Virus record (IMG/VR): IMGVR_UViG_3300042154_002293
Span: 1-26,538 of that record
Length of the DNA stretch: 26,538 bases
Strand: one strand, 5' to 3'
Source: a virus
The position numbers and the translations under genes are program-made. Each line of letters starts with the position of its first letter. The first letter of the stretch is position 1. Below are positions 7,109 to 25,880 of the stretch, piece by piece. The notes under the pieces were generated by a model. That model searched no databases and was not told where the DNA came from. It saw only the letters and a list, made by a program, of their open reading frames with translations.

Positions 7109-8056
7109 ATGACTACATTTGTGACTGGTGGTTTGGGATTTATTGGTTCTAATTTTGTAATCTCTCACCTTAAAAAGTATCCAACAGACGAAATCGTCAT
7201 ACTAGATAATTATTCCTATGCTGCAAACAGCAGCAATCTGGATGGATTTTATGAAGATTGGAGATTGCAAGTATGTAAAATTGATATTTGCAATTATGAA
7301 TTTTTGGAGCATATGTATCGCGATTATGAACCACATATTACTTTTCACTTTGCGGCTGAGTCTCATGTTGATAATTCTATTCACGGTGACGATGCCTTTC
7401 TTAGCGCCAATATTAACGGCACTCATAACATTCTAAAGTGCATCAAGAAACATGGAGGCAAGTTAGTCCATGTTTCTACCGATGAAGTTTATGGGAGTCT
7501 TGGTCCAGAAGATCCTTCGTTTACAGAAACAACACCATACGATCCGCGCAATCCATACTCTGCAACCAAAGCAGCCAGCGACCATTTAGTTCGCTCGTAT
7601 GTCAATACACATAAGATTGATGCAGTGGTAACTAATTGTTCAAACAACTATGGTCCTCGGCAGCATGCTGAGAAGTTTATTCCAACCATTATTCGCAATA
7701 TTAAGAACAACACGCCTATTCCAGTTTATGGTACTGGCTCTAATGTTCGTGATTGGTTGTTTGTTGAAGACCACTGTGAAGCATTGCTCGCAATTGGTGC
7801 AAACTTTAAATCTGGTGAACGCTATAATATCGGCGGTGGTCATGAGATTACCAATCTAGAAATGGTAACATTAATTCTTGATATTATGGGTAAGCCAGTA
7901 AACATGTATCAGAACTGGATTAATTTCGTTGCTGATAGAAAGGGTCACGATTTGCGTTATTCTATGAATTCAGATAAAATATTCAAAGAACTCGGTTGGT
8001 CAGCAAAAACAAAGATCGTCGAGGGATTGACTAAAACATTGGAGTGGTATCTATGA
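7109..8056 (+). CDS. rfbB: dTDP-glucose 4,6-dehydratase (RmlB/RfbB)
   Basis: A 315-residue extended short-chain dehydrogenase that converts dTDP-glucose to dTDP-4-keto-6-deoxyglucose. Rossmann motif TGGLGFIGSN at 6-15; HFAAESHVDNS at 80-90; the dehydratase signature S123-T-D-E126 (Asp/Glu pair acting in water elimination); and the SDR pair Y150-SAT-K154. NYGPRQHAEKFIP and DRKGHDLRYS are family signatures. Length is slightly under the bacterial enzyme (about 350) but all catalytic residues are present, so it should be active. A GAGG ribosome site precedes the ATG. The stop overlaps rfbA by four bases (ATGA), so the two pathway enzymes are translationally coupled. Confidence 0.96.
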   Translation: MTTFVTGGLGFIGSNFVISHLKKYPTDEIVILDNYSYAANSSNLDGFYEDWRLQVCKIDICNYEFLEHMYRDYEPHITFHFAAESHVDNSIHGDDAFLSANINGTHNILKCIKKHGGKLVHVSTDEVYGSLGPEDPSFTETTPYDPRNPYSATKAASDHLVRSYVNTHKIDAVVTNCSNNYGPRQHAEKFIPTIIRNIKNNTPIPVYGTGSNVRDWLFVEDHCEALLAIGANFKSGERYNIGGGHEITNLEMVTLILDIMGKPVNMYQNWINFVADRKGHDLRYSMNSDKIFKELGWSAKTKIVEGLTKTLEWYL

Positions 8057-8928
8057 GAAAGGGATTAATTTTATCAGGTGGACTGGGAACTAGATTATAT
8101 CCATGCACACAAGTTTTATCTAAACAATTGTTGCCTGTTTATGATAAGCCACTAGTTTATTATCCACTTACAACGTTAATGATGGCTGACATTCGCGACA
8201 TTATGATCATTAATAGTCCGAATGATAGTGATCAATTTCAGCGACTTCTAGGTGATGGTTCGCAGTTTGGTTTAAACATCACATATTCAGTGCAGCATGA
8301 ACCACGTGGCATCGCTGAGTGTTTTCGTATTGCTGAACGCTGGATTGGTAATAGCGACGTAGCATTAATTCTTGGCGATAATATTTTCTACGGAAACGAT
8401 TTAATCAATCGATTTAATCGCGCAAACTGGAACACAACTGGAGCAACGTTATTTGCATATCACGTCAATGACCCAGAACGATTTGGTGTTCTTGAGTTGG
8501 ATAAAGATAATAATCCAGTAGATGTCCATGAAAAGCCAGCCAAAGCACCAAGTAATTATGCTGTCACTGGTTTGTATTTCTATGACAATAGTGTGGTCGA
8601 TTATTCATTTGCGATTAAACCATCAGCACGTGGTGAGTTAGAAATTACTGACATCAATAAGATGTACATGAAAGAAAATAACTGTAAAGTTGAGTTCTTA
8701 AATCGCGGTGTGGCTTGGATCGACACAGGAACATTTGAATCGTTGTCGGAAGCCTCTGTATTTGTTGGTTCTGTTCAGCGAAGAACAGGAACAATGATTG
8801 GCTGCCCAGAAGAGATTGCCTTTAAGAGAGCATGGATTACTGAAAAGCAAGTTGAACAACAGGCTGATAAGTATTCTAAATCAGATTACGGTAAGTATTT
8901 GTATAAAATTATTCATACGAGGATTTAA
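8053..8928 (+). CDS. rfbA: Glucose-1-phosphate thymidylyltransferase (RmlA/RfbA)
   Basis: A 291-residue nucleotidyltransferase that makes dTDP-glucose from dTTP and glucose-1-phosphate, the substrate of the upstream dehydratase. The nucleotide-binding loop GGLGTRLYP (9-17) is followed by SKQLLPVYDKP (23-33). LGDN at 107-110 holds the metal-binding Asp. EKP near 160, RGELEITDIN near 193-202 and WIDTGT near 222-227 are family signatures. The frame is open to a GTG at 8044, but the ATG at 8053 is chosen: it forms ATGA with the rfbB stop, has GGAG at 8041-8044 eight bases before it, and the protein then begins MRKGLILSGG as in known RmlA proteins. In the phage it would draw on the dTTP pool. Confidence 0.96.
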   Translation: MRKGLILSGGLGTRLYPCTQVLSKQLLPVYDKPLVYYPLTTLMMADIRDIMIINSPNDSDQFQRLLGDGSQFGLNITYSVQHEPRGIAECFRIAERWIGNSDVALILGDNIFYGNDLINRFNRANWNTTGATLFAYHVNDPERFGVLELDKDNNPVDVHEKPAKAPSNYAVTGLYFYDNSVVDYSFAIKPSARGELEITDINKMYMKENNCKVEFLNRGVAWIDTGTFESLSEASVFVGSVQRRTGTMIGCPEEIAFKRAWITEKQVEQQADKYSKSDYGKYLYKIIHTRI

Positions 8929-8930
8929 TT

Positions 8931-9701
8931 ATGGCTATTCTAGTTGTTGGTAGAGGTTGGACAGGAACAAAAGTTTTTAACGAGTTGGTTCTGCGTGGAC
9001 ATGTCACTGCTATGTGCTCGCATGATGCTGCCATTGCTGCTGTAGAAAGCAACAAGTTTTCCTGGGTTGTAAACTGTGCAGGTGTAACTGGCACACCAAA
9101 TGTTGACGCATGCGAAAAGGATAAGTCTGGAACAATTCATGGTAATGCTGTTTTCCCAATCCTTTTGCATCAAGCCTGTGAAAGAAACTATACCAAGTTA
9201 GCCCATTTCTCCAGTGGCTGCATTTATCAGGGTGACATCACCGATGTAAATGCTGATCCAAATTACTTTGGTAGCATCTATTCTATAAGCAAGGGTATTT
9301 CAGATGTATACTTGCGCGATAAAGCCCTTGTATTCCGTATTCGCATGCCATTTACAGGTAAACTTGAAGCAAAAAATTATCTGTTTAAGGTTATGAATTA
9401 TGCTAAAACTGCTAAACTTATTGATGCAGGTGAGAACTCATTGACAGATCTCGACGAGGCGGTGCGAGTCGCATGTGATTTGATTGAATCTAATGCTTTT
9501 GGACCATATAACCTGGTTAATAAGGGTTCGGTCAATATGCATGAATTGGCTGAACTTATGAATATCCAACCAGAATGGTTTACTCCAGAAGAGTTTAAGG
9601 CTGTTACTGCAGCAGCACGTTCAACCTGTACAATCCCAGCCTATGACGCAATGTCTGATCTGACTTTCGCTCTCACACAAGCGATTAAGTCAATGGATTA
9701 A
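8931..9701 (+). CDS. RmlD-like NAD(P)-dependent sugar reductase/epimerase
   Basis: A 256-residue Rossmann-fold protein, two bases after rfbA. The N-terminal VVGRGWTGT (5-13) fits the dinucleotide-binding glycine motif. NCAGVTGTPNVDACE at 48-62, SSGCIYQG at 94-101 and the pair Y117-SIS-K121 correspond to extended SDR enzymes such as RmlD (dTDP-4-dehydrorhamnose reductase). It is shorter than typical RmlD (about 290-300), and the glycine motif is unusual (GRGWTG). It likely acts on the dTDP-4-keto-6-deoxy sugar made by RmlA and RmlB, or its epimer. Without RmlC in the window the product cannot be fixed: dTDP-rhamnose, another 6-deoxyhexose, or a different sugar nucleotide. Confidence 0.85.
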   Translation: MAILVVGRGWTGTKVFNELVLRGHVTAMCSHDAAIAAVESNKFSWVVNCAGVTGTPNVDACEKDKSGTIHGNAVFPILLHQACERNYTKLAHFSSGCIYQGDITDVNADPNYFGSIYSISKGISDVYLRDKALVFRIRMPFTGKLEAKNYLFKVMNYAKTAKLIDAGENSLTDLDEAVRVACDLIESNAFGPYNLVNKGSVNMHELAELMNIQPEWFTPEEFKAVTAAARSTCTIPAYDAMSDLTFALTQAIKSMD

Positions 9702-9761: not shown

Positions 9762-10898
9762 ATGTTAAAGTTCTCTGCCTTTTTAACAGAGGCAACTAAA
9801 GCCGTAGGAATTCAGCATCTAGAGCATCCCTCAGATCGCACATTCGACGGTCCAAAAGAAGCATCTCAAGCACTTACTGCTCTCCGAGGCGTCGCTCTCG
9901 GAAGGACTCCAATTACACGCAAAATCGATGACAAGATGTCATTCCAGATCGTCCGCGAAAAGGACGGTCGTGTTGGTGTAAAATACAAAGGTCCAGGCGC
10001 CAAGTATAATTACACAGCCTCTGATGTTGACACTCAGCATGGTAAAAAACCATATCTTGCTGAGCCACTTAAAGCCATTCTGATGCATGGCTACAAAGTT
10101 TTACCAAAAAAAGCAGGTGAGTGGCAGGGTGGATTTATGTCCACTCCAGAAACTCGCGAAGAAACCGACGGTAAGATCTCGCATACTCCAAACACCATTC
10201 AGTATGCCGTCGATAAAAATTCCCCAGAAGGCAAAAAACTTGCTAAATCCAAACTCAGTATCACAGTTCATACTGAGTTGAAAGGTAAGAACAAAAAGGC
10301 AACACCTATTACGGATCAGTCTGAGTTTGGAGAACATCCAGACGTGCATTTAGTTAAACATGCTATCGGTAAAGAAGAACAAAAGTTAAGTCTAAAAGAT
10401 CGTAAGGCTGTTGCTGAAAGATTAGCAGCCGCTCAGAAATTAATGAAAGATCATTCCTTCGAGCATCTTACTGGTCACGAGGCAACACTTAGAACCTTTG
10501 TAAACTCGACAGTTGATACTGGTGAAAAGCCAACTGTACAGGGATACACTCGCCATCTTACAAACAGATGGGAAAAAGAAATTTCTAAAGTTAAAACTGA
10601 AAAAGCAAAAAATGCAAAGGCTGCTGCTCGTGATGCTGCGTTAGCACATGTAAAGAAAAACGCTAAAGCATTTAAAAAGACATTCGATATTCATCACCAA
10701 ACTCAACAAGCAACTAATCTGCTAGCACGTGGTTTAAATAAAACTGCGGCAGGGGAATATTCACATTCTATTGGTGGTAAAGAATCAGGTCCAGAAGGTT
10801 ATTTTGCCAAAGGATTAAAAGTTGTAGACCGCGAAGAGTTTAGCAAACTTAATCGTGCTCGATCAGCAGTTCTCAGAGGACAACAGGCAGTCATATGA
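9762..10898 (+). CDS. DUF6267-like phage protein with capsid-targeting-like leader
   Basis: A 378-residue basic protein. It begins MLKFSAFLTEA, like the leader of T4 internal head proteins (MKTYQEFIAEA), where prohead protease gp21 cuts after Glu. The rest resembles a divergent member of the phage family I know as DUF6267: HLEHPSDRTF, then a K54-I-D-D segment where family members have KWDG, WQGGFM near 121-126 where they have GDLMF, and HTPNTIQYAV near 141-150. KxDG, a later G-(E/D)-x-(M/L)-F and a downstream strand resemble the order of motifs in ATP-dependent ligases and capping enzymes, so a nucleotidyltransferase-like fold is possible, but the Gly to Asp change argues for altered or lost activity. 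The C-terminal third is Lys/Ala-rich and helical. Confidence 0.7.
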   Translation: MLKFSAFLTEATKAVGIQHLEHPSDRTFDGPKEASQALTALRGVALGRTPITRKIDDKMSFQIVREKDGRVGVKYKGPGAKYNYTASDVDTQHGKKPYLAEPLKAILMHGYKVLPKKAGEWQGGFMSTPETREETDGKISHTPNTIQYAVDKNSPEGKKLAKSKLSITVHTELKGKNKKATPITDQSEFGEHPDVHLVKHAIGKEEQKLSLKDRKAVAERLAAAQKLMKDHSFEHLTGHEATLRTFVNSTVDTGEKPTVQGYTRHLTNRWEKEISKVKTEKAKNAKAAARDAALAHVKKNAKAFKKTFDIHHQTQQATNLLARGLNKTAAGEYSHSIGGKESGPEGYFAKGLKVVDREEFSKLNRARSAVLRGQQAVI

Positions 10899-13339
10899 GT
10901 AGAGCAACATTTACATTTGGTCGCTTTAATCCGCCAACCGAAGCAGGTCATGGTAAACTTGTGTCTGCAGTTCAGGGTCATGCTGAAAAAAGTGGTGGCG
11001 CACATTATATTTTCCCATCGCATACACAAGATTCTAAAAAGAATCCACTGTCACATGGTGAAAAAACAGGTGCACTGAGAAAACTATTCCCAGACGCCAA
11101 TGTTGTTTCTAATGGCAAAGTTAAAACTGCAATTGATGCAATGAAGCATCTAGAATCTAAAGGACACACACATGTAACAATGATTGTTGGTTCTGATAGA
11201 GTCAAAGAGTTCCACACTCTACTCAATAAATATAGAACGAAAGAATTTCCAGGAATTAAAAAAGTAGAAGTTAAATCTGCTGGTCAACGAGATCCAGACG
11301 CAGAGGGAGCTGAGGGAATGTCAGCTTCTAAACTTCGTGGTCTAGTTAAGGCAGGTAAACGCGACGAGTTTGTTAGCCATTATAGCAACAAAGAACTCGG
11401 TGCATTAATACATGATAAGGTAAAAAAAGCAATGAGCGAAGAAACAAATTCACCAATCGGTATTTTCCTACTCGGCGGTCCAGGCAGCGGCAAGGATTAT
11501 GTTCTTAAGAACATTTTTTCTCGCTTTGATTTGACTGAAGTCCAGTTAGATCAAGTCTTAACAGGCAAAGCATCTGAACTATTGGAATCAAAAACCAATA
11601 TTGTCATCAATGGTGCTGCTGACGTTGATAAGATTGAACTCGTTAAGACTATGCTCGAAGGCTATGAGTTCGACACCGTGTATGTTTCTGTGACGAACAA
11701 AGTTTCTCGTGTTCGTAATGAAGAAAGAACAGATCCACTACCAGAAAACAAGCGTTTAGAAAAGTGGTATCGCGCTGAGAAACTAGCCGAAGAACTCGAT
11801 TGCTTTGTTTTCAATAACTCAATTAATCTAAATGAATCTAATCATTTTGAACAGGTTATGTTTGCAAGTCAGATCGAAAAACTATTAGAACGTCTTGTAG
11901 AGCACGGATTAGTATTATCTGAAAAGAAGTTTCCAGCTGTTGCAAAAGATAAAGAGTCTGGGCTTCCAAAGAAGTATGTTGCAGGATTGAGCAAATCAAC
12001 TGCTAAAGCAAGAGCAGCACACTGGAAAAAGAAAGCAAAACTTTCTGACAGTGACCCACGCGCATACGAGCCAGCTCCTGGCGATGCAACTGCAAAAACA
12101 AAACCAAGCAAGTATACGCTCAAAGTGCGTAAGATGATGGATGAGTCAGCTGATAAATCACTCTCTGCAAAAGCAGCCAAATCAGGTGTTTCACTTTCTA
12201 CATTAAAGAAAGTATATCGTCGCGGTGTTGCTGCCTGGAATTCTGGGCATCGTCCAGGAACGACACCATCGCAGTGGGGTCATGCTCGTGTCAATTCCTA
12301 TATCTCTAAAGGCAAAACTTATCATACCGCAGATAAAGATTTAAGAGAAGACATTGATGAATTATTTGAACAGGAGATTAATAATGTTGTTGCAATGGAT
12401 CATGAAATTATTTCCACCGAAACAGAACAAATTTGTTGCGGAGGAGACGGAATTGGAGAAGCAGTTGGAGACAATCCTCAACAAGTCGTTGACACGACGC
12501 CAACGCTCGCCGCAGCAAACAAAAAGAAAAAGTCCCAAATAACACCACCAACTGCACGTGATGCAGCACAAGATGGTTTGCCTGTAGTTACAACAGGTGC
12601 TTATGTTCGTGAGGCAAAAAAGTTATCATTTATGCCAACACCACGCCAAGTTCCAGCTCCTCCAGGAGGACATTCAGTTCCACCAGGATATGAGCGTGTT
12701 AAGTCTTGGGGTGGTGCTTACGAACTACGCAAGATTCGCGAAAAGCCAACAACAGTAAAAGAAGCTGTAGAATATCATATGGAGAATAAGATCTCTTTCA
12801 CTGAGAACGTTTTCCGTCCAGGTTCAGAGATGTTCTTCGAGATGATTGCAGAAGCCAAGAATCTCTATAAAGAAGGCAAATATACACCAGCTGATAAGTT
12901 TGAGATCGATCTACTTGAATCAGACATTGGTGAAATTGCTGAATTTGAAGGTCAGCAAGTTGTTCTAGATTATCCAATTGAGGAAGGTCTAGAAGAATGC
13001 TGGACTGGATATGTACAGAAGGGATTAAAGAAGAAAGGCAACCGAATGGTTCCTAATTGCGTTCCTGTAAATGAAGAAGATAAAACTGACGGCAAAGGTA
13101 TTGGCAAGCCATGGCGCGAAGGCGGTGGCGGCGCTGTTTATGTTCGCACTGGCGACGGCGGCGTAAAGAAAGTTCGTTTCAGTCAGTCAGGAATGACAAA
13201 AAAGTTTAATGATCCAGGTGCAACAAAATCATTCGTTGCTCGCCATCATTGCTTAACCAATAAAGATAAGACTAGCGCGTCTTATTGGGCGTGTCGTTAT
13301 CCAAGATTCTTTAGTAACTCAGGCAAAATATGGTGGTAA
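10895..13339 (+). CDS. Mosaic nucleotidyltransferase-kinase multidomain phage protein
   Basis: An 814-residue fusion. Residues 1-180: cytidylyltransferase/NadR-like nucleotidyltransferase, with TFGRFNPPTEAGH (6-19, TxxGH variant of HxGH) and GMSASKLRG (141-149, as ISSTxIR). Residues 187-340: P-loop kinase-like, Walker A GGPGSGK at 194-200. Residues 356-415: GLPKKYVAGLSKSTAKAR and PGDATAKTKPSKYT, a small phage domain (DUF5872 type, from memory). Residues 424-481: TLKKVYRRGVAAWNSGHRPG and W461GHARVNSYI (DUF5824 type). Residues ~630-695: a helical module. Residues 701-725: CWTGYVQKG and PNCVP. Residues 757-800: KSFVARHHC and YWAC. It starts in ATGA overlap with the previous gene. The order suggests serial domain capture. 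The N-terminal enzymes may act on a nucleotide cofactor; the rest is of unknown function. Confidence 0.88.
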   Translation: MSRATFTFGRFNPPTEAGHGKLVSAVQGHAEKSGGAHYIFPSHTQDSKKNPLSHGEKTGALRKLFPDANVVSNGKVKTAIDAMKHLESKGHTHVTMIVGSDRVKEFHTLLNKYRTKEFPGIKKVEVKSAGQRDPDAEGAEGMSASKLRGLVKAGKRDEFVSHYSNKELGALIHDKVKKAMSEETNSPIGIFLLGGPGSGKDYVLKNIFSRFDLTEVQLDQVLTGKASELLESKTNIVINGAADVDKIELVKTMLEGYEFDTVYVSVTNKVSRVRNEERTDPLPENKRLEKWYRAEKLAEELDCFVFNNSINLNESNHFEQVMFASQIEKLLERLVEHGLVLSEKKFPAVAKDKESGLPKKYVAGLSKSTAKARAAHWKKKAKLSDSDPRAYEPAPGDATAKTKPSKYTLKVRKMMDESADKSLSAKAAKSGVSLSTLKKVYRRGVAAWNSGHRPGTTPSQWGHARVNSYISKGKTYHTADKDLREDIDELFEQEINNVVAMDHEIISTETEQICCGGDGIGEAVGDNPQQVVDTTPTLAAANKKKKSQITPPTARDAAQDGLPVVTTGAYVREAKKLSFMPTPRQVPAPPGGHSVPPGYERVKSWGGAYELRKIREKPTTVKEAVEYHMENKISFTENVFRPGSEMFFEMIAEAKNLYKEGKYTPADKFEIDLLESDIGEIAEFEGQQVVLDYPIEEGLEECWTGYVQKGLKKKGNRMVPNCVPVNEEDKTDGKGIGKPWREGGGGAVYVRTGDGGVKKVRFSQSGMTKKFNDPGATKSFVARHHCLTNKDKTSASYWACRYPRFFSNSGKIWW

Positions 13340-13613: not shown

Positions 13614-15401
13614 ATGCCAGTAAAAGTCCCACCACTATTGCACAAGATGTCTTTATCTGCTCAAAAGGCATGGTATAAGAAGAACAACATGGAAATGCCA
13701 GCCAGCAAACCAAATGAAGTTGCAGGTAAATCTGCAGCTGCTGCAAAAAAGATCAAGTTGCAGCCAAGAAAGGCACCAGAAGTTGCAGCAGGTTCTATTC
13801 GAGCAATTAATGCGGCTCGTCAGAAAGCATACATGGCAAAGGGTGGTCGCCAGCCTATTGGTGCAACTGGCTCAGGTGGAAGCAATGTAATGGCTGGTTC
13901 AAATATGTCAACTGCGAAGGGAATCGTTGCTGGAATTAAGGCTGGATTTAATCCAAAGGTTTCCTTAAATCCATACGAAGGAATGACGGCTAAAGAAAAG
14001 AAATCAATGAAGAAAGAAGAAGTTGAGCAAATCGAAGAAGGCAATCCAGCAAATAAAGCAAAGAAAAAAGAAGCCATTCGCCAGCTCGGATTAAAAGCAA
14101 TGGCTGCTGGAAAAGTTGATAAAGCCAGAGGATATATTCCACAGCGTGCTGGTAGGGAAATGCTTAAAAAGGAAGAAGCTGAAATGAATGAAGTAACAAA
14201 ATCCGAAGCCGAAAAAGTTCTTGGTGGTCCAGTAAAAACAAAACCAAAGATGCCACCAGGCAAACAACCAGCAGGTTATCGATACGTTCGTGGTCTTGCT
14301 CGTAAGGCAATGAAAGCAGGAATGAAGAAAGACGAATATGATTCTCCAGCACGTAAGGCTATGGAAAGAGAATTACAATACAATCCAAAATATAGAATGG
14401 AAGAGGTTGAGCAGGTTGAAGAAGGCAAAATTGCAAAGGCGCTCGCAGTTGGTGCGATGTCATTGGCTTCAATGGGAGCAAAGGCACACACTGATACCAC
14501 AAAGTCAGTTGCTCAATTAGCGCAGGAAAGACCAGCACTTGCACAAAGATTGAAAGATATCGGTGCAGAAGGTCAAGTCCCTGCATCTGATAAACGTGCT
14601 GCTGAACTTCAAAAGAAACAGGATCAAGAAATGCCAGCCTCTGAGCGTCGTGCAAAAGAGTTGAAAAAAGAAGAAACTGAGCAGGTGGATGAGGCTCGCC
14701 GTATGAGTGCAGCAGAAAAGTTAGGTCGTGCATTTGATTCAGAACAACAAAGAAGTGCATTGAGCCGTCAGCGTGGGCTAGATTTATTGAAGCAAAAAGA
14801 CACCGAAAAAATGCAAAATAAACTTGCATCTGGTAATATGACAAAACTAAAGAAAGAAGAAACCGAGGAATCCACAATGAAGTACATCGAAGAAAAACTA
14901 ACAGCTTCTGATCCAGCATCAAAGTGGATTAGCGATTTCGTCAAGTCAGACAATCCAAAGTTTGCTGGAGCGAGCAAGAAAGAGCGTATTCAACAGGCTC
15001 TAGGTGCTTACTACGCGAAAAAGCGTGGAACAAACGAAGAAGTCGAGAAGATTGATGAACTCAAGAAATCTACTTTGCAAAGTTATGCTAAAAAAGCAAG
15101 TACAGAAATGAAAAAAGCGTACGACTATCATCAAATGCGTTATGGTGGTCGTGATGGTTCTGATTCAGAATACATGAAAAAGACATATCCAGCTGCTGTT
15201 GCAAAATATGACAGAAGAGATGCTGGAGTTGCAAAGGCTAAACAAAAGTTAGCAAAAGAAGCACTAGATCCAGTTGGCAAAGAAGATAAGGATATCGACA
15301 ACAATAATAAAGTTGACAAGACAGATGTCTATCTAGCCAAGCGTCGCGGTGCAGTAAGCGCAGCAATTCGTAAGAAAGCTGCTGCAAAAATGGGGAAATA
15401 A
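13614..15401 (+). CDS. Lys/Glu/Ala-rich repetitive protein, possible prohead core polyprotein
   Basis: A 595-residue highly charged protein with a strong GAGG ribosome site. Similar short segments recur: KKEEVEQIEEG (133-143), RMEEVEQVEEG (261-271), LKKEETEQVDEA (350-361), KLKKEETEES with YIEE (411-427) and NEEVEKIDEL (474-483). Several end in (I/V)xE before Gly or Ala, like sites of T4 prohead protease ((L/I)xE|A/G). Small modules typical of marine T4-like phages lie between them: DPASKWISDFVKSDNPKFAG (433-452) with ALGAYYAKKRG, and KEDKDIDNNNKVDKTDVYLA (556-575), which contains an EF-hand-like Asp/Asn loop. A hydrophobic stretch at 273-291 follows the second site. No fold spans the whole chain. 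A scaffold or internal head protein cut during maturation is inference, not shown. Confidence 0.8.
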   Translation: MPVKVPPLLHKMSLSAQKAWYKKNNMEMPASKPNEVAGKSAAAAKKIKLQPRKAPEVAAGSIRAINAARQKAYMAKGGRQPIGATGSGGSNVMAGSNMSTAKGIVAGIKAGFNPKVSLNPYEGMTAKEKKSMKKEEVEQIEEGNPANKAKKKEAIRQLGLKAMAAGKVDKARGYIPQRAGREMLKKEEAEMNEVTKSEAEKVLGGPVKTKPKMPPGKQPAGYRYVRGLARKAMKAGMKKDEYDSPARKAMERELQYNPKYRMEEVEQVEEGKIAKALAVGAMSLASMGAKAHTDTTKSVAQLAQERPALAQRLKDIGAEGQVPASDKRAAELQKKQDQEMPASERRAKELKKEETEQVDEARRMSAAEKLGRAFDSEQQRSALSRQRGLDLLKQKDTEKMQNKLASGNMTKLKKEETEESTMKYIEEKLTASDPASKWISDFVKSDNPKFAGASKKERIQQALGAYYAKKRGTNEEVEKIDELKKSTLQSYAKKASTEMKKAYDYHQMRYGGRDGSDSEYMKKTYPAAVAKYDRRDAGVAKAKQKLAKEALDPVGKEDKDIDNNNKVDKTDVYLAKRRGAVSAAIRKKAAAKMGK

Positions 15402-15402
15402 T

Positions 15403-15840
15403 ATGACAGATGCAACAGAACGTTCCGCAGAAGATAAGGGCGAATACGATTACGAAGGCGATATGGCAAAGTCTCAGCTTCGCAGCATTCTAGCCAATGC
15501 AAAACGTCTTCACGACATGTTAAAGCCTGATTCAAATTTACCTGAGTGGGTTCAAAGCAAGATTACTCTTGCTGAGGATTACATTCTAACCGCAGCAAAT
15601 TATATGGAAGGTGAAATGAACGAAGAAATGAAACCATATGTCAAAGCTGCGCAGAAAAAATTTGATTTGGAAGCCAGAGCAAATCGAAAGAATACAAAAC
15701 AGGCAGGAAGTGCAGCAGCTGGTTACGAACGAAAGAAGCAAAAAGAAGCATCAGCTGCTTTGAGAGTTCTTGACCTTGTTAAAGGTAAAAAGAATAAGAT
15801 CGACACCAAACCACAAATGAGTGATAGCAAAGATGCTTAA
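15403..15840 (+). CDS. Conserved small phage protein (EYDYEGDMAK motif)
   Basis: A 145-residue hydrophilic protein. Residues 14-72 hold a motif recurring in T4-like phages: EYDYEGDMAKSQLRSILANA, LHDML, LPEWVQSKITLAEDYI and AANYM, predicted as a helical hairpin. The second half is Lys/Ala-rich and probably disordered or helical. In other phages this motif can sit inside larger repetitive proteins like the one just upstream, so the two may share a role in the head or core. A GGGGAAA ribosome site precedes the ATG. Function unknown. Confidence 0.8.
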   Translation: MTDATERSAEDKGEYDYEGDMAKSQLRSILANAKRLHDMLKPDSNLPEWVQSKITLAEDYILTAANYMEGEMNEEMKPYVKAAQKKFDLEARANRKNTKQAGSAAAGYERKKQKEASAALRVLDLVKGKKNKIDTKPQMSDSKDA

Positions 15841-16291
15841 ATTTAATGAATTTTTAAACGAAGAGTTCGGTGAATTAATTACCGTTGATTCTCGCTATCT
15901 CGAAGAGAACATGGACACAATTAATGCAGATCTCGATGCATTAACTGAAAAGCCATATCAAAATGCACCTATTTTCTTGGCTCAGCTCCGTGGAGTTACT
16001 GAGAAATATGGTATGCCATTACCACAATCTGCAACTAATAACTTCCTAGATCTAGGTGCTGAGTTAGTTTATATGCTCGGCGAAACAGACTATCATCTAT
16101 ATGTTGTTTACGATACTAATGAAGATGGATTTGTCGACGGTTATGCTCAAGTTGTATCAAACGATGAACTTCAAGACCTATTAAATATGGATTCTGAAGA
16201 AGTATTGGGAGATCGCGAAGAGATTACTATGCGCCCATCTACATGGTATGCAAAACGCGATGACGATTCAGGTAATACTAGCGAATATTAA
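15833..16291 (+). CDS. Hypothetical acidic protein with capsid-targeting-like leader
   Basis: A 152-residue acidic protein. The frame is open to a GTG at 15821, but the ATG at 15833 is preferred because it overlaps the previous stop (ATGCTTAA) and gives MLKFNEFLNEE, almost the same opening as the gene at 9762 (MLKFSAFLTEA) and close to the T4 internal-protein leader MKTYQEFIAE. The body contains FLAQLRGVTEKYGMPLP, LYVVYDTNEDGFVDGYAQVV and a Ser/Asp-rich tail. YDTNEDGFVDG resembles a calcium-binding turn but could simply be a beta hairpin. I do not recognise a family. Confidence 0.75.
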   Translation: MLKFNEFLNEEFGELITVDSRYLEENMDTINADLDALTEKPYQNAPIFLAQLRGVTEKYGMPLPQSATNNFLDLGAELVYMLGETDYHLYVVYDTNEDGFVDGYAQVVSNDELQDLLNMDSEEVLGDREEITMRPSTWYAKRDDDSGNTSEY

Positions 16292-19852: not shown

Positions 19853-21202
19853 ATGAAAAAATTACTAGCAGTTCTTGCTCTCCTGGCATCTGGAGCAGCA
19901 TTCGGTCAAACGACCACAGTTTCTACGGTCAATACGACCTCCGATGTCAATACGACAACAAATTCTACGTCGACTTCTACATCGACTTCGGACAACACCA
20001 ACACGAATGTGAATACGAATAATAACATTCAATCTGGTACTGCAACTAATATTAATCAGAATACGAATACTTCTACTTCGACTTCTGATAATACCAACAC
20101 GAATGTGAATACAAACACTTCGACTTCTACGAATACCAATACGAATGTTAACACAAATAATAACATTAATAGTGGTACAGTAAACTATAATAATAACAAT
20201 ACCTCTACGAGTACTGCTACGAATAATAATAACAACAATTCTGTTGTGAACAGCACAAATACGAACACGAATGTAAACACAAATAACAACATTCAGTCTG
20301 GTACTTTGACAAATAACAATAATAATGTGAACACAACGACATCTAATAACACAAATAATAATAACAATGTGAACACAACGACATCTAATAACACTAATAA
20401 TAACAACAATGTCAATGTGAGCACATCAACCTCAACGAATACAAATAACAATAATAACAATTTGTCTGGTGAGGTAACTTACAATAACAATAATAATAAC
20501 AACACGAATATTAATTCCACAAATACTAACAATAACAACAATGTCTCTACATCAACTAACACAAATAACAACAATAATGTCTCTACTTCAACTAACACAA
20601 ATGTGAATAAGAACGACAGCACTTCTGTTGCTACAAATAATAATAACAATGTGAATGTGAGCACATCAACTGCTGTAAACAAGAACGAGAATGTGAATAA
20701 GTCAGAGAGCACAAGCCAATCAAGTGTAAAGACAGATAATACGAATACAAATATCAATCGTAACGAAAATATCACCAAGTCAGAAACAACAATCAAAGCA
20801 CCTCCTGCTTCTGCCATCGCTCCAATGATCTCAACATACAGCCAGGATGTCTGTGTATCAGGTGTTTCTGGTGCTGTTCAGACTCAAGTCCTTGGTCTTT
20901 CTGCTGGTAAGGCAGTTCGCGATATGAATTGCGAAAGATTGAAACTATCTAAGACTCTATACGATATGGGTATGAAGGTTGCTGCTGTATCAATGATGTG
21001 CCAAGACGAAAGAGTCTTCAGAGCAATGGAAATGGCTGGCACACCTTGCCCATATATGGGTAAGATTGGTAAGGAAGCAACTGAACAGTGGACAGGCAAT
21101 AAAGAAGAACGTCCAGACTTCAAGAAGAAGTGGTGGAAGTTCTGGGTAAAGAACGAGCAAGAAAAGTCAACTGATCTTCCAGAAGCATCAGAAGGCGGCT
21201 AA
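19853..21202 (+). CDS. Exported Asn/Thr/Ser-repeat protein with C-terminal Cys domain
   Basis: A 449-residue protein with a signal peptide (1-18, AFG before Gln19), so it should reach the periplasm or beyond. Residues ~20-315 are almost only Asn, Thr, Ser and Val: NTNVNTNNN followed by I(Q/N)SG at 59, 105 and 147, LSG at 204, and shorter near-identical repeats. Residues 316-412 are a globular domain with C334, C360, C383 and C399 (DVCVSG, GLSAGKAVRDMNCERLKLSK, MMCQDERVF, TPCPYMGKIG) that matches a conserved domain in several marine T4-like phages. The end is Lys/Trp-rich then acidic. AGAGG precedes the ATG, and the stop overlaps the next gene (TAATG). Function unknown; a surface fibre or adhesin-like shaft is possible. 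Confidence 0.85.
   Translation: MKKLLAVLALLASGAAFGQTTTVSTVNTTSDVNTTTNSTSTSTSTSDNTNTNVNTNNNIQSGTATNINQNTNTSTSTSDNTNTNVNTNTSTSTNTNTNVNTNNNINSGTVNYNNNNTSTSTATNNNNNNSVVNSTNTNTNVNTNNNIQSGTLTNNNNNVNTTTSNNTNNNNNVNTTTSNNTNNNNNVNVSTSTSTNTNNNNNNLSGEVTYNNNNNNNTNINSTNTNNNNNVSTSTNTNNNNNVSTSTNTNVNKNDSTSVATNNNNNVNVSTSTAVNKNENVNKSESTSQSSVKTDNTNTNINRNENITKSETTIKAPPASAIAPMISTYSQDVCVSGVSGAVQTQVLGLSAGKAVRDMNCERLKLSKTLYDMGMKVAAVSMMCQDERVFRAMEMAGTPCPYMGKIGKEATEQWTGNKEERPDFKKKWWKFWVKNEQEKSTDLPEASEGG
19913..20797 (+). repeat. Asn/Thr/Ser-coding low-complexity repeat region
   Basis: About 880 bases made mostly of AAT, AAC, ACA, ACG, TCT and GTG codons in one reading frame. There is no single fixed period: blocks ending in an I-Q/N-S-G unit are 42-57 residues apart, with shorter tandem units inside. 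Synonymous codons vary between copies (AAT/AAC, ACA/ACG/ACT), so the repeat is kept at protein level more than at DNA level. The open frames on the other strand here are by-products of the biased composition. Confidence 0.9.
20327..20410 (+). repeat. Two tandem 42-base units
   Basis: Two directly adjacent 42-base copies, 20327-20368 and 20369-20410, each encode VNTTTSNNTNNNNN. They are nearly identical, differing at a few third positions (for example ACA to ACT and AAT to AAC). This is the cleanest recent duplication in the repeat region and suggests growth by replication slippage or unequal recombination. Confidence 0.9.
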
Positions 21203-25003: not shown

Positions 25004-25447
25004 ATGAAGAAGAGAATAACTATAATGCAAGCTGCATTGCTTGCAATGTTTATCGGTTTATTCACTTCATATGCTTTTGCCAATCCTTACGATTATAAAA
25101 TCGTCAAGGTGAGCGATGGCGATACAGTGGTGTTTGAAGCACCATTTATGCCAGCACCACTCAAGCCGCAATTAAGTTTGCGCGTCTTGGGTGTTGACAC
25201 GCCAGAGAAAGGTGCACGCGCTGGTTGTCCAGCAGAGGCTGCTGCGGCAGAAAAAGCCAGTGCGTTTACCAAGAACCTTGTCGCCAATGCTAAAAAGATT
25301 CAGATTGAATTGAAAGAGCATGACAAGTTTGGTGGGCGTGTGCTTGGTGATCTAATTGTCGATGGTCAGAGATTATCTGAACTATTGATCAAAAACGGTC
25401 ATGCTCGTGCATACTTCGGCGAAAAGAAACAATCTTGGTGTGATTAG
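25004..25447 (+). CDS. Exported SNase-like (thermonuclease) protein
   Basis: A 147-residue nuclease of the staphylococcal nuclease fold with a signal peptide (1-26, AFA before Asn27), so it should act in the periplasm or outside. SNase signatures: VSDGDTVVF (36-44; D40 as metal ligand), LSLRVLGVDTPE (57-68; R60, D65 and E68 matching Arg35, Asp40 and Glu43 of the staphylococcal enzyme), DKFGGRVLGDLIVDG (107-121; R112 as Arg87) and ELLIKNGHA. All expected catalytic residues are present. It starts one base after the previous stop. It could degrade DNA near the envelope; whether host debris or incoming phage DNA is unknown. Confidence 0.93.
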   Translation: MKKRITIMQAALLAMFIGLFTSYAFANPYDYKIVKVSDGDTVVFEAPFMPAPLKPQLSLRVLGVDTPEKGARAGCPAEAAAAEKASAFTKNLVANAKKIQIELKEHDKFGGRVLGDLIVDGQRLSELLIKNGHARAYFGEKKQSWCD

Positions 25448-25466
25448 TGTATACAGAGATTTTTAT

Positions 25467-25880
25467 ATGAGTAACAATCCAGAATATACATTTTATCTAG
25501 AGTATTATGATCAGCCAGATGGCACATCTAAACAATGTGTAAAAGGAATTGATGATAATTATATTTTAGTCGATAATATTCAAGTTGGTGACGCTATAAA
25601 AACTGATATCAGTCTTAATGGTGTTAATACATGGAATGTGGCATCTAAAACTTTAACAACAGATACTTACGTGACATTTAAATTAGACAGCAAAAAACTA
25701 ATGTGCTCTTCTAATGCAAATTTCGCAAATTCAACAACCAAACAGTTAATTAATGTATCTGAAATAACAGATGGTATGATGTTGGGTGATAAAGTTGTTA
25801 GCGAGAAACAAGTGAATATTGATGCTGAAATTTATCAAATTAATCTAGAAAACACTGTATTAGTTTTAATGGGAAAATAA
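25467..25880 (+). CDS. Isolated Hint-like (intein/hedgehog-type) domain protein
   Basis: A 137-residue protein. The open frame extends upstream, but the Met at 25467 is preferred: it has AGAG at 25454-25457 and gives MSNNPEYTFY, and the upstream part overlaps the SNase gene. The middle follows the order of a Hint fold: ILVDNIQVGDAIKTD (as 'eelkvGDkV'), VTFKLDSKKLMCSSNANF (as the strand before the TxxH/NHxF block, but with no His), VSEITDGMMLGDKVV (a second 'eL-GD-v' turn), and DAEIYQINLENTVLVLMG (as 'vyDieVe-nhnfvanG'). The usual first Cys and block-B His are not visible, so self-splicing is unlikely. Fold assignment is by pattern only. Function unknown. Confidence 0.6.
   Translation: MSNNPEYTFYLEYYDQPDGTSKQCVKGIDDNYILVDNIQVGDAIKTDISLNGVNTWNVASKTLTTDTYVTFKLDSKKLMCSSNANFANSTTKQLINVSEITDGMMLGDKVVSEKQVNIDAEIYQINLENTVLVLMGK

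Follow-up and report, generated by a model that had tools for sequence, protein, structure and literature searches.

The T4 internal proteins are packaged one gene at a time, each with its own targeting peptide, and the T4 genes for gp67 and gp68 sit in the slot between the portal gene (20) and the protease gene (21). The T4 protease gp21 cuts after the glutamate of L/I-x-E, and gp67 and gp68 are precursors that it cuts into pieces (PMC9026906). One of the internal proteins, IPI, is an injected restriction inhibitor (PMC3012670). In SPN3US and phiKZ, inner head proteins (SPN3US gp53 and gp54) have long propeptides that receive multiple xE cuts from a gp21-type protease (PMC10052503), and the polyvalent proteins of phages and conjugative elements are thought to travel with the DNA, sometimes being processed before packaging (PMC5512222). 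Core proteins cut many times, internal proteins bearing a capsid-targeting peptide (CTS), polyvalent proteins and the multi-cut propeptides of SPN3US are all known.

Here we describe P0001, encoded by an uncultured T4-type phage in a stretch of 26,538 nucleotides (the window; positions 1 to 26,538 of IMG/VR record IMGVR_UViG_3300042154_002293). Its sequence suggests that P0001 is probably a head-internal (prohead core) polyprotein that a gp21-type protease would cut at each of its junctions. What appears to be new is the combination of exchangeable basic modules with a standard joint; in the literature searched, we found junctions of this kind described neither for cyanophages nor for other T4-type phages from the environment.

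Modules and junctions of P0001

The P0001 open reading frame starts with ATG. A preliminary description had read it as a head polyprotein punctuated by five protease sites, with conserved small modules between them. All five quoted segments are real and end, as claimed, at residues 142, 270, 360, 427 and 482 of the translation, but a sixth junction, KKEEAEMNE↓VTKSEAE after residue 193, had been overlooked. The gene, its modules and its junctions are as follows (↓, putative cut).

13614..15401, + strand: polyprotein gene P0001, 595 aa, strongly basic apart from the junctions
13614..14039, + strand: module 1, residues 1-142, family F1, common to 11 other proteins, ending KKEEVEQIEE↓
14010..14039, + strand: junction 1, KKEEVEQIEE↓, after residue 142, P3 = I
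14040..14192, + strand: module 2, residues 143-193, family F15
14163..14192, + strand: junction 2, LKKEEAEMNE↓, after residue 193, P3 = M (L/I in relatives)
14193..14423, + strand: module 3, residues 194-270, family F9 (VTKxEAExxLGGPVK)
14394..14423, + strand: junction 3, RMEEVEQVEE↓, after residue 270, P3 = V
14424..14693, + strand: module 4, residues 271-360, family F13
14664..14693, + strand: junction 4, KKEETEQVDE↓, after residue 360, P3 = V
14694..14894, + strand: module 5, residues 361-427, family F4
14865..14894, + strand: junction 5, EESTMKYIEE↓, after residue 427, P3 = I, motif in its short form
14895..15059, + strand: module 6, residues 428-482, family F3, homologue in gp67/gp68-slot proteins L177 and L031
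15030..15059, + strand: junction 6, TNEEVEKIDE↓, after residue 482, P3 = I
15060..15401, + strand: module 7, residues 483-595, family F0 (LKKSTLxSYxKKA), the most frequent of the modules

The [ILV]xE triads of P0001 number five and coincide exactly with the five named junctions, with none elsewhere. The bare triad is not enriched (5 observed against 7.0 expected in composition-preserving shuffles), and the argument therefore rests on where the triads stand and on the repeated long form, E[EA].E.[IVL][DE]E. This long form occurs in 4 copies against 0.0017 per shuffle, a contrast that speaks for common origin and conservation and not for four independent events, since the copies are homologous repeats. 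The site at residue 427 (MKYIEE↓K) lacks the long form and is a true module start, KKEEVEQIDE preceding the same module in L031. EEAEMNE↓ (residue 193, nt 14192) was counted as a junction because LDE, IDE or INE precedes module VTKSEAEKVLGGPVK in relatives.

The module bodies of P0001 have net charges of +4 to +18, and are thus basic like the mature bodies of T4 internal proteins. An N-terminal CTS ending in [L/I]xE, as in those proteins, was not found: P0001 begins MPVKVPPLLHKMSLSAQKAWYKKNN, and its first xE junction comes only at residue 142. The AlphaFold model is poor (pLDDT 57, pTM 0.20) and nearly all helix. Four of the five named junctions lie in or next to stretches of low confidence; the junction after residue 360, unlike the others, falls inside a helix predicted in this same low-confidence model. 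A Pfam search of P0001 returned no domain, its PHROG matches were to families of unknown function only, and tblastn of the whole protein against phage isolates gave no match, single modules alone making a connection. The C-terminal DPVGKEDKDIDNNNKVDKTDVYLAKRR segment of module 7 is similar to a segment in cyanophage gp185 slot proteins. A search for the late promoter TATAAATA gave 49 matches against 40 expected, none of them informative near the P0001 gene.

Exchange of modules among relatives

A first scan of viral contigs yielded 67 loci; scanning again with L018 yielded 34, mostly new. These loci together with four long records, after removal of near-duplicates at 90% identity, gave 87 non-redundant proteins. 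They hold 184 long-form sites with the consensus [K/N]-E-E-V-E-Q-[I/V]-[D/E]-E↓x, in which the invariance of P8, P5 and P1 is imposed by the search pattern. When the chains are split at the sites, the median length of the internal modules is 79 residues, and many are close to 57. The conserved small modules of the preliminary description are borne out across these relatives, where module families recur in differing orders and numbers; family F4, for example, is preceded by the N-terminal module in L004, by F13 in the window and by an unrelated module in L036.

With the sites masked, 404 local alignments started at a site in both partners, compared with 2-11 under random decoy masks, and 313 crossed sites, compared with 993-1151; these alignment counts are not independent of one another, but they differ widely from those of the decoys. 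A masked-BLAST breakpoint test with a uniform expectation was dropped, because the mask biases it, and the decoy masks were used in its place. As far as sequence comparison can tell, homology breaks at the junctions and modules are exchanged between related phages. The module bodies of the family carry a mean charge of +11 per 100 aa and exceed +8 in 71% of cases, against 3-9% of genome ORFs, while the junction tails are acidic (-4.2).

The N-terminal unit of a 1431-aa polyprotein homologue (L062:5453-9745) resembles the HicA toxin (Pfam E 2e-11), and the same protein has an intein-like insert within one module (AKSKFDVYP / SAYANGWAAKWYK).

Modules in the portal-protease slot and in virions

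The P0001 gene lies after the cytidylyltransferase gene, downstream of uvsX and a gp41-type helicase gene, and not between genes 20 and 21, where only its modules recur. No head genes occur in the window record, a 26.5-kb fragment, and we therefore infer the gp21 of this phage from relatives. Six long relatives encode gp21 (PF03420; G002, G003, G004, G028, G029 and G030). G028 (173 kb) keeps the window gene order (uvsX, gp41-type helicase, sugar-nucleotide genes, DUF6267, cytidylyltransferase, cupin-like gene, polyprotein), and the two UvsX proteins are 83% identical.

At 14 of the 51 gp21 loci, the slot protein has a module in common with polyproteins whose genes lie next to the cytidylyltransferase gene and away from gp21. 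This count replaces a first comparison, at about 30 of 51 loci, which had used L027, L029 and L031; these come from the first scan, lie in records with gp21 and are themselves apparently slot proteins. The gp20-gp21 slot proteins of G002, G003, L215, L143 and L214 have the same motif and modules: the G002 gene carries EEVEQIDE↓I and EEVESIEE↓K, and the G003 gene VELDE↓V and EEIEE↓VSKKTLGSYIKKA, the latter being the commonest polyprotein module. Module 6 of P0001 (residues 428-482) is 64% identical to its match in the L177 slot protein, and a homologous module lies in L031; both slot proteins are encoded immediately upstream of gp21. The long motif is absent from the gp67/gp68-slot protein of G028 itself. 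In that genome the gp68 position, directly upstream of gp21, is occupied by a very basic 99-aa protein (L305:6972-7268) that starts MSLVSDIVREIIAE↓A, where a CTS-like leader precedes a body resembling protamine.

Three genes near P0001 have features that bear on its surroundings.

9762..10898, + strand: DUF6267 protein, starting MLKFSAFLTE↓A, in the same slot as cyanophage T4-GC71
10895..13339, + strand: cytidylyltransferase/DUF5824 protein, whose cyanophage relatives are virion proteins
15833..16291, + strand: protein starting MLKFNEFLNE↓E, a CTS-like N-terminus, syntenic with MLKFSEFLKE in G028

The N-terminus of L306:8832-9980, MFSFKDYIPLLTE↓E, also resembles T4 capsid-targeting peptides. 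The resemblance of these N-termini (9762-10898, 15833-16291 and L306:8832-9980) suggests that the whole cluster may encode head-packaged proteins. A genome scan for IPIII-like N-termini was too crude for statistics.

Several other genes were noted along the way. Between the helicase and the putative head-cargo genes, window positions 7109-9701 hold three sugar-nucleotide genes (dTDP-glucose dehydratase, glucose-1-phosphate thymidylyltransferase and epimerase-like), partly kept in G028. A 449-aa signal-peptide-like protein consisting mostly of Asn/Thr/Ser repeats (NTNTNVNTN...) is encoded at 19853-21202 and is followed by a 713-aa acidic, secreted-looking protein. The 3′ end of a secreted thermonuclease-like ORF (25004-25447) is overlapped by an ORF (25401-25880) of Hint/intein-like appearance (CVKGIDDNYILVDNIQVGDAI), and the pair may represent a nuclease gene into which an intein has inserted. 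In G002 the polyprotein gene adjoins one for a protein that by eye is Dps/ferritin-like (79120-79566, - strand), possibly a further DNA-protecting head cargo.

In cyanophages the T4-GC190 cytidylyltransferase gene immediately precedes the polyprotein slot. The virion cytidylyltransferases of S-SM1 and S-CREM2 start MKKFSAFLNE↓A and MKNFSSFLTE↓A, respectively, and these ends appear much like the T4 IPIII targeting peptide (PMC9026906). Their presence in virions was reported for S-SM1 (PMC3037559) and for S-CREM2 (PMC10665884), and the S-CREM2 virion proteome also lists gp155 (5 unique peptides) and gp160 (7 peptides; PMC10665884). Gp155, the next gene after the cytidylyltransferase, has KKEKIEE↓G followed by a module, and this stretch is 63% identical over 67 residues to the L112 stretch around KKEEVEQVDE↓; in gp160, NLEE↓ and EISE↓ accompany modules that also occur in L045. 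The module KKPTGxLKDACW stands behind an internal EEVEQIDE↓ in L032 and behind an N-terminal MKTFKEYINE↓, which resembles the T4 IPIII targeting peptide, in L127 (similarly in L125 and L126), and therefore can apparently be delivered either as a CTS-like protein with a single leader or as part of a chain.

These data bear on what would become of the pieces. P0001 might be a head-internal, cut scaffold precursor whose pieces are mostly lost, like those of T4 gp67 and gp68, with no part to play in the next host; this is a sub-case of the polyprotein reading, set apart by what becomes of the pieces. It would fit the modules and motif shared with gp67/gp68-slot proteins, the observation that T4 core fragments mostly leave the head (PMC9026906), and the free change of the modules, as might be expected of filler. 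However, the module-bearing gp155 and gp160 of S-CREM2 are still in mature virions, strongly basic modules suit retention with DNA, and the neighbouring cytidylyltransferase is a virion protein in both S-SM1 and S-CREM2. Loss of the pieces is thus a serious possibility, but we consider it the less probable outcome.

Residues retained at the joint

Junctions without the long motif were gathered through the modules' own sequence, which gave 134 distinct cases. In 98 of them (73%) an [ILV]xE triad ends exactly at the module start, compared with 0.8% at offsets of more than 8 residues. P1 is Glu in 117 of the 134, and P3 is I in 46, L in 34, V in 19 and M in 11 (110 with one of these four). The contexts upstream are otherwise unrelated (DGPVIDE↓, MKYIEE↓, ELDILINE↓, GCPLLE↓). 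P1 Glu and an aliphatic P3 thus outlast the rest of the motif, the pattern expected of a gp21-type site.

The (L/I)xE rule invoked in the preliminary description covers P0001 in part: P3 is I at three of the six junctions, as in the T4 consensus of L/I, but V at two and M at one. The triad before the mature gp23 N-terminus in 73 distinct proteins is LxE in 71, IxE in 1 and MxE in 1, and never has V, so V at P3 marks at most a putative cut site in this clade. In homologous junctions V at P3 alternates with L and I among relatives; the counterparts of junction 3 in L006, L012, L020 and L021 have L.

Codons at the conserved junction residues vary across the 184 sites (P5, GAG in 99 and GAA in 85; P6, GTC in 67, GTT in 61 and GTA in 18), and selection therefore acts on the protein level. 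A DNA-level recombination site at the junctions was rejected on the same ground.

The junction could alternatively be an uncut, disordered acidic spacer or recombination joint between the basic domains of a multidomain DNA-binding protein. An acidic tail of -4.2 would offset the basic modules, pLDDT is low at most junctions, and the break of homology at the junctions would suit such a joint. A spacer, however, would not need to keep P1 Glu and an aliphatic P3 where the remaining motif positions have changed; N-terminal CTS-like contexts have the same x-x-E end, and the variable codons speak against recombination at the DNA level. We consider an uncut spacer unlikely. Cutting outside the head by a host or other phage protease, to give several cytoplasmic proteins, is very improbable: V and M at P3 lie outside the T4 rule and synteny alone gives P0001 no head location, but its modules are common to gp67/gp68-slot proteins, relatives are present in virions, [ILV]xE↓ is near the T4-type prohead protease signature and LxE is kept in the gp23 of relatives.

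A proposed pathway for P0001

The head polyprotein with prohead-protease sites originally proposed has much indirect support, from module boundaries that fall at the sites, the retention of P1 and P3, modules in slot proteins, gp21 and LxE in relatives and relatives in virions; counting against a place in the head, P0001 lies outside the gp67/gp68 slot and has no N-terminal capsid-targeting-like peptide. On balance we infer a head location, cleavage and a role for the pieces as follows. Some seven small modules, helical and basic, would be made as a single chain that enters the prohead core with gp22 and the protease. During maturation the gp21-type protease would then cleave every junction behind the Glu of [I/L/V/M]-x-E, and the small basic proteins would come free individually beside the packaged DNA. 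These might serve in DNA condensation or as anti-defence cargo like T4 IPI; the cargo role is favoured for at least some units because L062 contains a HicA-like unit and T4 IPI is an injected inhibitor (PMC3012670).

A broader and more tentative reading, which we would not yet favour over its negation, is cassette loading of the head: one gene would supply several cargo proteins on standard joints, swapped by recombination and injected with the DNA as a changeable mix for anti-defence or host takeover.

If P0001 is a head polyprotein, this suggests that one gene can load several separate proteins into a phage head, and it would be a clear case of a DNA-phage polyprotein whose units pass between phages and between genes. 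The joint motif would then be a reading key to the boundaries of unannotated head cargo in the genomes of many marine and freshwater phages, and would give exact termini to seek in existing virion mass spectra.

Comparison with known systems

The P0001 family resembles the polyvalent proteins (P1 DarB and DdrB; Iyer et al, 2017, PMC5512222) in having one long chain of shuffled units. Polyvalent proteins, however, have large enzymatic domains and their processing is ascribed to built-in metallopeptidases, whereas the Pfam search gave P0001 neither a single domain nor the set of disparate, mainly enzymatic ones typical of that class; its relative L062 does have the HicA-like unit. In SPN3US the motif is A-x-E and the propeptide is destroyed, whereas in the P0001 family [I/L/V]-x-E separates conserved modules.

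Among cyanophages, SSM1_191, S-SSM5 gp185 and an S-SKS1 hypothetical protein share modules with the P0001 family, and the S-SM1 and S-SSM5 slot proteins are located, like P0001, after the T4-GC190 cytidylyltransferase. These slot proteins carry KKEEVENVEE↓G or NEEFEQLDE↓L, with fewer clear sites and diverged modules compared with P0001. S-SSM5 gp185 (L135:5980-7569) and SSM1_191 (L138:3422-4843) are annotated 'cytidyltransferase', and no nucleotidyltransferase motif was seen in either; the annotation looks wrong, and both instead resemble polyprotein-slot proteins.

With the T4 internal proteins the family shares small putative mature proteins that a predicted cut after [L/I]xE would release, fast-changing bodies beside a constant cut signal, and a module common to a CTS-like protein and a polyprotein. 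The T4 proteins are encoded by separate genes with one N-terminal CTS each, whereas P0001 has many units per chain and no N-terminal CTS-like peptide. T4 gp67 and gp68 are likewise charged, with several xE sites per chain, and relatives of P0001 occupy their head-core gene position; no sequence similarity is claimed. P0001 is encoded far from the 20-21 cluster and is much longer, and, unlike T4 gp67 and gp68, it is composed of exchangeable basic modules with one repeated long junction motif.
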